A stretch of DNA of 64,000 nt from an uncultured Chlorobiaceae bacterium (GTDB taxonomy: Bacteria; Bacteroidota; Chlorobiia; Chlorobiales; Chlorobiaceae): contig CAIMCD010000026.1 in NCBI GenBank assembly GCA_903839405.1, positions 1 through 64,000 on the forward strand. The letters are read 5' to 3'. The notes beneath the pieces are model-generated. The model was not told the origin of the DNA. It saw only the letters and a list, made by a program, of their open reading frames with translations, and searched no databases. The translations under genes and the position numbers were made by a program. This document shows positions 2,833 to 8,027 of this stretch, in pieces. Each line of letters starts with the position of its first letter. Positions within the stretch are counted from its first letter, which is position 1.

Positions 2833-4242
2833 TTAAGGTTTTAACATACCCATAATCTCTTCGCGCGACTCCACAATTCGCTCAACCAGGTCAGGATGGC
2901 AGAGCACCCTGAATTTCTTGGTGTAACGTTCAAACGAGAGAATAAAATCCGACTGGAAAACCGATTCCTGCAGATCGTCAAACCGGATGTATTCGCCCTC
3001 AAGCTGCTCGTTGTAGTGGGTGTGAGCCGCACGGGTCGGGTAGACCCTCAGCTCCTTGAGGTCGGCGTAATCAAAAATATCCTTTTTCGAAGGCGGGTCA
3101 ATCAGCACCTCATGGCCGTGCAGATCAAGATGGTAGCGCTGGTTGAGAAAGCGGCAGATAGCCTGCTCCATGTTGCGGCGCATCTCACTATTGCTGTTAT
3201 AGATAAACCACCCTTCATCCGCCTCTGAGCTTCCGGCAAGGTAGGGTTGCACGGTGATGGAGCGTTTGTAGACCCGGCGCATCAGAATATCCTCAAGCAG
3301 TTCACCGAGCGGATGGTTCCCCTCCGGCATGAGCCGCTTCAGCTCGTAGAGCACCCGGTCATCGGCATTGCTGTAAAAGAGATCGCGCAGGGCGGCGGGT
3401 GCGATGAGCCCCTGGTTCGCAATATCCTGCAGAAGCCGGCGCAGCATGGCCGAGAGCGAGCGGCTGGTGTGGTGCCAGTAGACGTTGCGCATCATCATGT
3501 ACTTGGCAAAGAGGAGGCTTTCAAGCGGCGCAATCCCTTTTTCCGTAATGGCAAACCGCTCCCGCGCCGGGTCGGGCACAAACGACTCGATCAGCCGCTC
3601 AATGTCGATGCTGCCGTAGGGAATGTTGCAGTGGTGGGCGTCGCGCATCAGGTAGTCCATCTTGTCGGGGTCGAGGGTACCGCTGATCAGCTTGCCGAAG
3701 CGATTTGCAGAGCTGCCGGTGATGAGGTTGATCACCAGCTCGGGCGACACCTTCCACTCCTCCTGCAAAATTTCCGCAATGGTGGGACTCCCCGGATTTT
3801 CCTCAAAAATAAAGTGGCGGCAGAGATGTTCGTGGTGCGAAAAAACCGGTTCGCCCTTGCAGCAGGGAATCTGCTCCTCAATCACATGGGCGTGCGGGTA
3901 GTGGCCAATATCGTGCAGCAGGCTTGCCGCGAGCAGCATCCGGCAGTTGTGTTCATCAAAGCGGAAGCTCTCGCTTTGCAGCTTCACGGCCAAGGGAGAG
4001 GTGAGCATTCGCTGCAAGATGAGCTTCATCAGGTGATAGACCCCGATGGAGTGCTCAAAACGGGTATGGTTTGCTCCCGGATAGACCTGCTGCGAAAAGG
4101 AGAGTTGGCGGATTCCCTTGAGGCGCAGGAAGGATGGGTGCGAAAGAATTTTTTTCAGCGGCCCGCTGAGCGCAATATGGCCCCAGATCGGGATGCGGAT
4201 AAATCCCTCATCGGACTGGAAAAGCAGGTTTTCAGCGATCAT
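2833..4242 (-). CDS. HD domain phosphohydrolase (SAMHD1/dNTPase-like)
   Basis: HTRFEHSIGVYHL, LLHDIGHYPHAH, DPDKMDYLMRDAHHC motifs. Confidence 0.88.
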   Translation of the reverse strand: MIAENLLFQSDEGFIRIPIWGHIALSGPLKKILSHPSFLRLKGIRQLSFSQQVYPGANHTRFEHSIGVYHLMKLILQRMLTSPLAVKLQSESFRFDEHNCRMLLAASLLHDIGHYPHAHVIEEQIPCCKGEPVFSHHEHLCRHFIFEENPGSPTIAEILQEEWKVSPELVINLITGSSANRFGKLISGTLDPDKMDYLMRDAHHCNIPYGSIDIERLIESFVPDPARERFAITEKGIAPLESLLFAKYMMMRNVYWHHTSRSLSAMLRRLLQDIANQGLIAPAALRDLFYSNADDRVLYELKRLMPEGNHPLGELLEDILMRRVYKRSITVQPYLAGSSEADEGWFIYNSNSEMRRNMEQAICRFLNQRYHLDLHGHEVLIDPPSKKDIFDYADLKELRVYPTRAAHTHYNEQLEGEYIRFDDLQESVFQSDFILSFERYTKKFRVLCHPDLVERIVESREEIMGMLKP

Positions 4243-4322
4243 GAAATTTGTGTGCTTTTATGAGAGTCAGCATGTGATTGTGATGTTTCATGGATGAAAC
4301 AAAGTTCAATTCAAAACATTAT

Positions 4323-6086
4323 TTATGCGTGTGTATCTGCTCCAAGTTGTTTTAGTAACCAATTGAGTTGATTTCTTGCTTTTGAAATCATTTCACTGAA
4401 TGTTAAAATATCTGTATTTGGTTCATGATTCTTCAGATTTAGCAAGTCATTCCCTTTCTTGCCGCCGATTACAAGAACTTTGATTTCGTTTTCTATGAAT
4501 GGCAAAAAGTCATTACGATAACCCGTAGCTTGTTGATAGTCAGTGTAAGTAAGCGAATGATTCGGTCGTTTGAACTCAATCAATAAATACTTGTTATCTG
4601 CATTCATATTCAGTAATAAGTCAGGTCGTTTATTTGCACGTTTTCCAGAATATGTTTTGCCCAATAAATCTTCAACTTGACGTTTTAATGTTATATTGCT
4701 ACTGAAGAATGAATATTCTAATCCAAAAACCCAAAGATTTTTAGCAAGTAAATCATGAATGTTTTTTTCTTCAGTACTTGAGTTTCTGCACAAGTAATCT
4801 AGTTTTTCTAAAAATATTAAACGACTATTAGCTTGTTCTCCAATGATAGCAAGTTCGATCAATCCAAATTGATTAAGCACCTCTGCAAGTTTTGCAATAT
4901 CAGAATGAGATGCCTCATTGATATATTCAAGAATTGTTCGATAATCAGTTCTTTCGAGCGCATCAAGAAGAACACTTACAATTGGTTCGACTTTCGATTC
5001 AGGTTCACCATAATAGCGTTCTAAAATCGATTTAATTGATTGTTCAGCAAATTTACGTTTGTATTCTGGTAGTTCTTGTAATCGCTGATTTATTCTTTTT
5101 TGTAGGCGAGCTTGAGCTAAGCTGATTTCTTGCCCATATTCTTGCTTAAATTTTTCTCTAAGTACAGGGAAGACGTCTTTTTTTACGGCTTCAAAAAGCT
5201 CACTGTTTTCAACTAACGCTCCCCAATCTGCTGTAACATGATCGATTAACCCATCAATTTCTATTTCACCGTATAGTTTTTTTAATAGCTTTGGAGGGAA
5301 GTCATTAGCTTCTTCTAATCCAAAATATTCTGGCTTTCCAACAATCTTTCCGTCAACACGTATCGAAATCCCTGGAGCTCTAAGATTTTTTCTTTGATTT
5401 GATATCGTAAAGCGGAGTCTTATTTTACCTACGTCAGGTAAATTTTTTTCATATTCAGTATAAGCTCCCTTAACATCATCAATTCCTAAGAGTTTACCAT
5501 CGACCTCAATATTAAAGTCTTCTTCCCGTCCGTATTCATGCAATAGTATTTGTCGGAGCTTATCTGCATTAGGAAATGTAAAGCCTTGATTTAAGCCTGT
5601 AAGTGTAATTCGTGTTCCATGATCTATTTCATAGTCTTTTTGAGAATCCAGATTAATCGGTAATTTTTCTATATCTTCAGCTTTTCCATAGTCTTCTTTT
5701 GTTAAAACGAATGTGCATTTTCTTCCGCGAGCCCATGTTTCAAGTTTCATAGAGCTAGCTGCCATTAAGCCAGCAAATTTACCTATTCCCTTACGTCCTT
5801 TTGCCTTTCTCTTTTTGTTTTTTGTTATTTCACCTCTTCTGATCCGACGATCATTGGCTATGAAAAGATATTCCTGCCTTAGTTCATTTTCAGTCATGCC
5901 AGAACCATCATCTTGAATAATAATCGCTTGTTCAGTTAGTGGCTCTGGTAATGTAATTTTAACTGTATCTGCTTCAGCATCCCAAGCGTTATCGATTAGT
6001 TCTTTAAGAGCTTTTTCGGAAGAACGATAGTTTTCCGATAAAAGCTTTGCTAGTCGTGTATTAACATGAAATCTGATCTCGTTCAT
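4323..6086 (-). CDS. GHKL/MORC-like ATPase fused to a C-terminal Shedu-like (DUF4263-type) PD-(D/E)XK nuclease module; putative defense protein
   Basis: N-term: ELIDNAWDAEAD (N box), IIQDDGSGMT (G1), GRKGIGKFAG (G2 lid). C-term: EKNIHDLLAKNLWVFGLEYSF...KRPDLLLN...KYLLIEFKRPNHSLTYTDYQQATGY, a PD-(D/E)XK-like D...EFK pattern. Visibly AT-richer than flanks. Confidence 0.75.
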   Translation of the reverse strand: MNEIRFHVNTRLAKLLSENYRSSEKALKELIDNAWDAEADTVKITLPEPLTEQAIIIQDDGSGMTENELRQEYLFIANDRRIRRGEITKNKKRKAKGRKGIGKFAGLMAASSMKLETWARGRKCTFVLTKEDYGKAEDIEKLPINLDSQKDYEIDHGTRITLTGLNQGFTFPNADKLRQILLHEYGREEDFNIEVDGKLLGIDDVKGAYTEYEKNLPDVGKIRLRFTISNQRKNLRAPGISIRVDGKIVGKPEYFGLEEANDFPPKLLKKLYGEIEIDGLIDHVTADWGALVENSELFEAVKKDVFPVLREKFKQEYGQEISLAQARLQKRINQRLQELPEYKRKFAEQSIKSILERYYGEPESKVEPIVSVLLDALERTDYRTILEYINEASHSDIAKLAEVLNQFGLIELAIIGEQANSRLIFLEKLDYLCRNSSTEEKNIHDLLAKNLWVFGLEYSFFSSNITLKRQVEDLLGKTYSGKRANKRPDLLLNMNADNKYLLIEFKRPNHSLTYTDYQQATGYRNDFLPFIENEIKVLVIGGKKGNDLLNLKNHEPNTDILTFSEMISKARNQLNWLLKQLGADTHA

Positions 6087-6228
6087 TAGCTACAGCTTAT
6101 GATTGATAAAATAATTTCAATAAAAAATTTTATTGAGCAATATTATAGCCTATTCGTATTTTTTGCATCATTCTTATTTTGTCGATTTCTCTCATAATCC
6201 TTGCCGTTTTCGTCAGTAGTACAATGAT

Positions 6229-6323
6229 GCGCGGTTACTGAAGGATATCCTCAAAGCTGAGCTCACGGTCTTGCCGGTTTTGTACCGCTTATTGATGGCC
6301 TCGATGTACTCCTGAATGGTCAT
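6229..6323 (-). pseudogene. Possible truncated start of a methylase/helicase-type gene (MTIQEYIEAINKRYKTG...)
   Basis: Reverse-complement translation from ATG at 6323; resembles the N-terminus of large ISP-type/N-6 methylase proteins from memory; too short to be sure. Confidence 0.25.
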
Positions 6324-6366
6324 GCGATTGTTTTACAGATTCTTGTTGTGGATGGGGGCGTTGTGC

Positions 6367-6408
6367 TTATCACAACTGCGCGGTATTATGAACGCACAGT
6401 TGTGATAA
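6367..6408. repeat. Inverted repeat
   Basis: TTATCACAACTGCG...CGCACAGTTGTGATAA arms around a 12-nt loop, with a 2-nt TG bulge. Confidence 0.7.
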
Positions 6409-6524
6409 TATAAACAAGGGATTGCGATTTTTTTTCAGGTGGGAGCTGACTTTAAGCGCTGAAGTGGTTTTATGCTCTTCAGCGCGCGAGTTTCTTTTAG
6501 CATCCAACTTTGTGCGCGAAGCAT

Positions 6525-8027
6525 TTATCCTGCAGAGCGTCGGGCTTCTTTGAGGTGCAGTTGGCAGACTTTTCGGAAGTGGTGGCCGTAGATGGCCAGG
6601 GTTACGGCGAGCGGGATGGAGTGCTGGCGGTTGAAGAATGTCCATACCAGCATTTTCCAGTACTGGAACCGTTCCCGTCCCACCACGCCGAGCAGCACCA
6701 CCGAGCGGATAAAGGCGAGCAGGTGGCTGAGGCGGAACCGTTCCTGGTATTGTGGCGCCCGGTATTCCTGCAGGAGGGTGCGCACTCTCTGGTAGTAGTG
6801 TTTCGGGCTGTAGAGCTGGGTCATCATGTCGGTATATCCCTTGCGCAGCACATCCAGATCCATTTTCGGAATAATGTTGGTGTTGCTGTCAACATTGTCG
6901 CCGCTTGAGTTATGCAGCAGCCGTCCCTCTTTTTGCATCCGTTCGTAGAGGCGGGTGCCGGGAAGGGCCTGCAGGATGCCGACCATGGCCGTGACAATGC
7001 CGCTTTTCTGGATGAACTCAACCTGTTTCTGGAAAATGGAGGGGGTGTCGCTGTCGAACCCTACAATAAAACCGCCCTGAACCTCCATGCCGGCGTGCTG
7101 GATTTTATGGATATTTTCAAGCATGTCCCTTGAGGTATTGTGCTGCTTGCCGCAGGCTTGCAGCGCCTGATCGTCCGGGGTTTCAATGCCGATAAAGACC
7201 TGGGTGAAGCCCGCCTCTACCATGAGCCGCATCAGTTCCGGGTCGTCAGCCAGATTGATGGAGCACTCGGTATAGAGTCGGGTGGTTGTTTTGTTGGCTC
7301 TCTGCCACTCAATCAGGCGCGGCAGCAGCTCTTTTTTCAGGTAGGCTTTGTGGGCAATGAAGTTATCGTCCACAAAAAAGATGCTGTCCCGCCATCCCAA
7401 TTTGCGCAGTCCATCAAGCTCCACAATAATCTGCTGGCTGGTTTTGGTGCGGATTTTATGGCCAAGTAGCGCCGTAACGTTGCAGAAGTCGCACTGGTAG
7501 GGGCACCCTCTTGAAAACTGCAGGGCCATTGAGGCATATTTCTTGATGTCGAGCAGCTCCCACTGCGGCGCAGGAGTGTGGGCAATATCCGGGAACAAGC
7601 TCGACGAGTAGTATTTCTGCAGCTTTCCCTTTTCCAGATCTTCAAGGAATGGCGGAAGGGTCAGCTCGGCTTCGTTGAGCACAAAGTGATCAACCGTCGG
7701 AAAGTCCTGATGTTCGGAGGTAAAGAGCGGGCCACCAGCCACCACTTTGCGATTGGCGTGGTTGCACTCTGCAATTACCTTACGGGCGGACTCCTGCTGG
7801 ACGGCCATGGCGCTGATCCATACCATGTCGGCCCACAGAATATCCTCCGGGCGAAGGGGGGCAATATTGAGGTCAACCAGTTTCCGCTCCCAGCTTTCAG
7901 GCAGCATTGCGGCTACGGTCAACAGGCCGAGCGGCGGAAGCGATGCTTTTTTGTTCACAAACTTCAAGGCGTGCTTGAAACTCCAGAAGGTGTCAGGAAA
8001 TTCGGGATAGATCAACAGAACTCTCAT
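6525..8027 (-). CDS. B12-binding-domain radical SAM protein (DUF4070-type)
   Basis: PPLGLLTVAAMLP B12-domain N-term; FSRGCPYQCDFCNV CxxxCxxC radical SAM motif; FIGIETPDDQALQ. Confidence 0.9.
   Translation of the reverse strand: MRVLLIYPEFPDTFWSFKHALKFVNKKASLPPLGLLTVAAMLPESWERKLVDLNIAPLRPEDILWADMVWISAMAVQQESARKVIAECNHANRKVVAGGPLFTSEHQDFPTVDHFVLNEAELTLPPFLEDLEKGKLQKYYSSSLFPDIAHTPAPQWELLDIKKYASMALQFSRGCPYQCDFCNVTALLGHKIRTKTSQQIIVELDGLRKLGWRDSIFFVDDNFIAHKAYLKKELLPRLIEWQRANKTTTRLYTECSINLADDPELMRLMVEAGFTQVFIGIETPDDQALQACGKQHNTSRDMLENIHKIQHAGMEVQGGFIVGFDSDTPSIFQKQVEFIQKSGIVTAMVGILQALPGTRLYERMQKEGRLLHNSSGDNVDSNTNIIPKMDLDVLRKGYTDMMTQLYSPKHYYQRVRTLLQEYRAPQYQERFRLSHLLAFIRSVVLLGVVGRERFQYWKMLVWTFFNRQHSIPLAVTLAIYGHHFRKVCQLHLKEARRSAG

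Follow-up and report, generated by a model that had tools for sequence, protein, structure and literature searches.

A GHKL ATPase-Shedu nuclease fusion gene at a variable site of an uncultured Chlorobiaceae bacterium, a probable stand-alone anti-phage nuclease

We asked whether a single gene of an uncultured Chlorobiaceae bacterium (contig CAIMCD010000026.1), which joins an ATPase to a nuclease, could act by itself in defence against phages. The window, that is the whole stretch of 64,000 nucleotides that was analysed, holds this gene as an intact reading frame with an ATG start. An initial annotation had proposed that a GHKL ATPase is fused to a Shedu-like nuclease in one ORF, and both domains are confirmed here by profile and structure evidence. 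By analogy with a characterised protein of like architecture, we consider the product to be an anti-phage nuclease of the paraMORC3 or Shedu type I-D kind that would work on its own and be gated by ATP, with a probability of about 0.86. The gene is divided as follows.

4323-6086, minus strand: GHKL ATPase-Shedu nuclease fusion gene, 587 aa (open reading frame and domain matches; GC outlier)
5655-6023, minus strand: GHKL (Bergerat-fold) ATPase domain, residues 22-144 (Pfam HATPase_c_3, PDB profile matches, Foldseek)
5217-5648, minus strand: transducer (S5-like or Hsp90-middle-like), residues about 147-290 (AlphaFold2 alpha-beta region; alignment)
4785-5201, minus strand: helical linker, residues about 296-434 (AlphaFold2 helices)
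4347-4775, minus strand: Shedu-type PD-(D/E)XK nuclease domain, residues about 438-580, with E440...D489...E504-x-K506 (SduA_C, hhalign, PDB match, model core)

Pfam HATPase_c_3 matches residues 22-144 of the 587-aa protein with E=3.3e-27. A profile of the ATPase half, compared with PDB sequences, found Hsp90/HtpG chains best (1.3e-9), with MORC3 at 2.6e-4. Foldseek matched the N-terminal half to Hsp90, TRAP1 and SMCHD1 with E-values near 1e-15 and alignments of about 370-430 columns into Hsp90 and SMCHD1; the TM-scores are low (about 0.25-0.3), so that the E-values speak for the ATPase module, the whole-chain arrangement being unmatched. The GHKL half dominated the Foldseek searches of the PDB and viral libraries, which gave no information on the nuclease domain. 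The Bergerat-fold motifs quoted in the initial annotation are all present, namely ELIDN (E29/N33), DDGSGM (D59/G61/G63) and GRKGIGKF (97-104). Moreover, E29, N33, D59, G61, G63, G97, G100 and K103 are invariant in alignments of the window protein with 11 and with 12 homologs (12-14 full-length family members were aligned). MORC, SMCHD1, Hsp90 and MutL share the fold and motifs of this ATPase module, but are without the Shedu nuclease domain. The region that follows was modelled by AlphaFold2 as alpha-beta, with mean pLDDT mostly 75-93 over residues 147-290, and contains a VDGK-VGKP motif whose K247 is invariant in the family alignments; its S5-like name is one that we infer from the MORC/paraMORC literature (PMC2292703). 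The helical linker was modelled at lower confidence (pLDDT about 42-92), the whole model, built on 13 sequences, having a mean pLDDT of 74 and a pTM of 0.52.

The C-terminal domain was identified by several routes. Pfam SduA_C (Shedu, DUF4263) matches residues 438-517 (E=2.3e-6) at 28.3 bits, which barely clears the gathering score of 27, and some homologs score below it. By hhalign, a C-terminal profile of 14 sequences matched one built from ten canonical Shedu domains of the same class with a probability of 96.1% and an E-value of 3.1e-9; across all PDB sequences it matched Shedu SduA best (8ti8, E 8.5e-4). One PADLOC SduA model was matched by 12 of the 13 family members. The D...E-x-K signature proposed earlier is found as RPDLLL (D489) and IEFK (E504/K506), and E440, D489, E504 and K506 are invariant in alignments of 12 and 13 family members including the window protein. 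The AlphaFold2 model has an alpha-beta-beta-alpha-beta core in which D489 opens strand 490-494 and E504/K506 close strand 500-505, and this predicted placement at strand ends is the one expected for PD-(D/E)XK nucleases. The C-terminus folded alone without an alignment gave a poor model (pLDDT 36), which was left out of the evidence. The nuclease domain family is that of canonical Shedu SduA (PDB 8ti8, 8ti9), whereas the N-terminal region of the canonical protein gives way here to a GHKL/transducer module; the reading frames of Shedu genes detected within the same class span 226-485 aa. The bacterium's own genome contains a second Shedu-type domain (contig C21:13224-13643, L126:7766-8587; SduA_C 34 bits), which is broken by TGA and TAA codons and is probably a degraded canonical Shedu gene.

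This arrangement has been described before. Iyer, Abhiman and Aravind (2008, PMC2292703) defined paraMORC3 proteins by their GHKL and S5 domains and, at the C-terminus, a conserved domain of the restriction-endonuclease fold that carries E-D-ExK. The family was sporadic and mobile in distribution, and stand-alone members, found mainly in proteobacteria and bacteroidetes, were described explicitly. They inferred DNA looping in restriction-modification (RM) systems, without experimental test, and considered non-RM roles for stand-alone paraMORC3. The window protein resembles paraMORC3 in its intact GHKL ATP-binding motifs and in its C-terminal E-D-ExK nuclease domain (E440, D489, E504, K506), with its core topology and Shedu profile match. 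More recently, Adams et al. (2025, PMC12137116) characterised VcSduA from the Vibrio cholerae WASA lineage, a horizontally carried single gene that encodes GHKL motifs I-IV, a clamp-like middle and DUF4263. VcSduA guards E. coli against T1-like Drexlerviridae and its own host against vibriophage X29, protection is abolished by E27A or K557A, and infected cultures survive at every multiplicity tested (PMC12137116). The authors assigned it to Shedu type I-D and proposed that the ATPase controls the nuclease. The window protein is like type I-D, as defined in PMC12137116, in combining an SduA_C/DUF4263 nuclease with a distinct enzymatic N-terminal regulatory domain (GHKL). It has the architecture of VcSduA, whose essential glutamate and lysine correspond to E29 and K506, and its kinship with VcSduA rests on this architecture and on the published description. 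However, VcSduA is longer, its ExK lysine being K557 rather than K506, and the two proteins may represent separate branches. It shares a published architecture and is no new kind of system. The BbrUII/HgiDII type II restriction enzymes (NF050001) also have a GHKL-type N-terminal half in common with the window protein; membership of that family was rejected, as the match scored 155 bits (2.5e-45) against a cut-off of 550 and no adjoining methylase was recognised.

Taken with these precedents, a working model can be proposed. With ATP, two copies of the GHKL module would probably pair by their N-terminal ATPase heads, and a clamp made up of transducer and helical linker would probably close around DNA. 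Closure driven by ATP would then probably position or license the paired C-terminal Shedu domains, with a metal-dependent E440-D489-E504-x-K506 site, to cut invading phage DNA while the cell is spared. For the window protein we infer dimerisation, clamp gating, DNA as the substrate and the trigger. By analogy with VcSduA, whose architecture it shares (PMC12137116), phage defence by the window protein would depend on the ATPase glutamate as well as on the nuclease lysine.

The gene stands out from its surroundings. Its GC content is 34.9% (GC3 23%), whereas the mean over 48 window ORFs is 53% (sd 4.5%), in agreement with the AT-richness noted in the initial annotation; in codon usage it deviates more than any of the others. 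Promoter-like sites at the gene were not above chance, a search for a terminator found none, and no flanking direct repeats of at least 8 bases were found around it. The gene had also been said to have no paralogous partner alongside, and this holds: its flanks are an HD-domain gene and a radical-SAM gene, and reading of the translated flanking ORFs revealed neither a methylase or helicase nor any other partner.

2833-4242, minus strand: flanking HD-domain gene, left edge of the variable site (genus conservation; HD name read from the sequence)
6182-6324, minus strand: scar left by deletion of a type ISP restriction-modification gene (blastn matches at either end of the intact gene in congener L087)
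6525-8027, minus strand: flanking radical-SAM gene, right edge of the variable site (congener synteny; name read from a CxxxCxxC motif)

The HD-domain gene is present in 61/65 genus genomes. We compared the interval 4243-6524 of the window with the matching intervals of 20 syntenic congener stretches (L069-L088). The gap between the HD-domain and radical-SAM genes ranges from about 100 bp to 7.9 kb across the genus, and its cargo differs between species. The site is near-empty (about 100-370 bp) in five congeners (L069, L080, L082, L081, L075), holds DuOB/DUF488 genes in three (L070, L072, L083) and a methyltransferase-like gene in another (L088). In L087 it extends to about 7.9 kb and includes a 1066-aa type ISP restriction enzyme (L087:5143-8340, minus strand; Pfam Type_ISP_C 3.3e-88). 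The scar in the window joins some 50 bp from the 5′ end of such a gene (MTIQEYIEAINKRYKTG) with some 100 bp from its 3′ end (RELSFED...). Therefore, given the near-empty intervals, the differing cargo and the scar, this interval is a variable spot, one that has housed at least two different restriction-type genes. The fusion gene was acquired into it horizontally.

That a deleted type ISP gene adjoins the fusion gene raises the question of whether the latter is an orphan, the GHKL restriction subunit of a lost RM system, either BbrUII/HgiDII-like type II or of the type ISP of the neighbouring scar, and now functionless. The N-terminal half does match the BbrUII/HgiDII family and PADLOC REase_II models, and some homologs lie within RM operons. 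However, the full-length BbrUII model fails by far, the match being mostly to the ATPase half, and the close homologs L002, L112, L114 and L115 are likewise without a methylase operon. The ISP enzyme of L087 has no GHKL gene with it, and thus the ISP and GHKL genes look like independent cargo. Moreover, the window gene is intact with invariant active sites. We consider a functionless orphan improbable.

Full-length copies of the gene are sporadic within the phylum. A search with the protein found no full-length copy in any of 36 congeners, and only 3 of the 395 genomes of the phylum, including that of the window, carry one. The closest homologs instead come from viral contigs (L112, 65% identity; L113, 63%; L114, 57-58%; L115, 53-54%). 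In a maximum-likelihood tree the window protein clusters with L112 and L113 (99/97), apart from the other copies in its own phylum, a position that fits horizontal transfer. Between the window gene and its homolog in L112, third codon positions diverge far more (0.595) than second positions (0.172), showing that the protein is under constraint. The neighbourhoods of these and other copies were examined at a handful of loci. The L113 copy lies near a tail fibre gene and a phage methylase, and that of L114 near a head maturation protease and a spanin-like protein. An integrase was found near the L115 and L116 copies, with a DNA polymerase also near the latter, and the L115 copy is adjoined by a SIR2-like/AbiH-like gene. 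An IS110-type transposase and a reverse transcriptase are found near the L112 copy; this reverse transcriptase is followed by a small membrane-protein-like gene (L112:10594-12700) and is possibly defence-associated. In Verrucomicrobiota, the L003 homolog is part of a type I RM operon that also encodes a ResIII helicase, an N6-methylase plus specificity domain and an AAA_13 protein, and that of L004 is preceded by a helicase, KilA-N, an Eco57I methylase and an AIPR protein. Homologs on rhizobial plasmids have a DEAD/ResIII helicase divergent to the gene. No recognisable defence neighbour was seen at L002, L008 or L019.

Two sets of more fragmentary or distant relatives were also seen. Members of this family that are truncated or have a broken frame are present in other genomes (L009, L010, L022, L117). 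A further group (L120-L125, L089, L090) comprises GHKL proteins, 555-672 aa long, whose C-terminus bears E-x-K but which have no SduA_C match; these are related but more distant putative ATPase-nuclease fusions, and that of L124 adjoins a DNA cytosine methylase-like gene.

Given that the nearest kin are on viral contigs, and that the GHKL fold is common to phage RIIA proteins, the product might be a phage protein for counter-defence or superinfection exclusion and not part of host defence. Tblastn of deposited phage genomes gave no match, though there is a match to one PHROG family. The likeness to RIIA is limited to the GHKL fold, with low TM-scores; plasmids and RM operons also carry homologs, and the window copy has no flanking phage gene. 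Superinfection exclusion borne by a prophage is, besides, itself a form of defence and overlaps with the explanation that we favour. We regard a phage protein acting other than in host defence as very improbable. The distribution bears also on whether the protein is a MutL-like DNA repair or mismatch-processing enzyme recruited into housekeeping, a reading for which MutL models match the ATPase motifs at 2.6e-8 and which recalls the non-RM roles considered by Iyer et al. (PMC2292703). We find this scarcely credible for a gene that is sporadic in the phylum, whose site is near-empty in congeners, and whose relatives lie in mobile and prophage contexts; the bacterium's own genome has a standard MutL-like gene at another locus (L126:1417-3294, identified by reading the ORF). 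The C-terminus matches a PD-(D/E)XK Shedu domain, and the contexts of homologs are mobile or restriction-associated rather than one housekeeping locus. With homologs in prophages, plasmids and restriction operons, and the window copy at a variable chromosomal site, the earlier proposal of a stand-alone defence protein is well supported.

Lastly, a wider reading is possible in addition to that of a stand-alone anti-phage nuclease. The window protein and its phage-borne kin could form a GHKL-Shedu branch separate from VcSduA, able to act by itself or to serve as an interchangeable effector in type I and type IIG restriction operons; we put this forward tentatively and consider it rather unlikely. 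If true, one ATP-gated nuclease would serve both free-standing and modification-guided defence. The compact homologs of about 587 aa could be easier than VcSduA to solve or assay for control of the Shedu nuclease by the GHKL clamp. In summary, an experimentally validated but little-studied defence architecture is extended to another lineage, and its close relatives are tied to prophages and RM operons.
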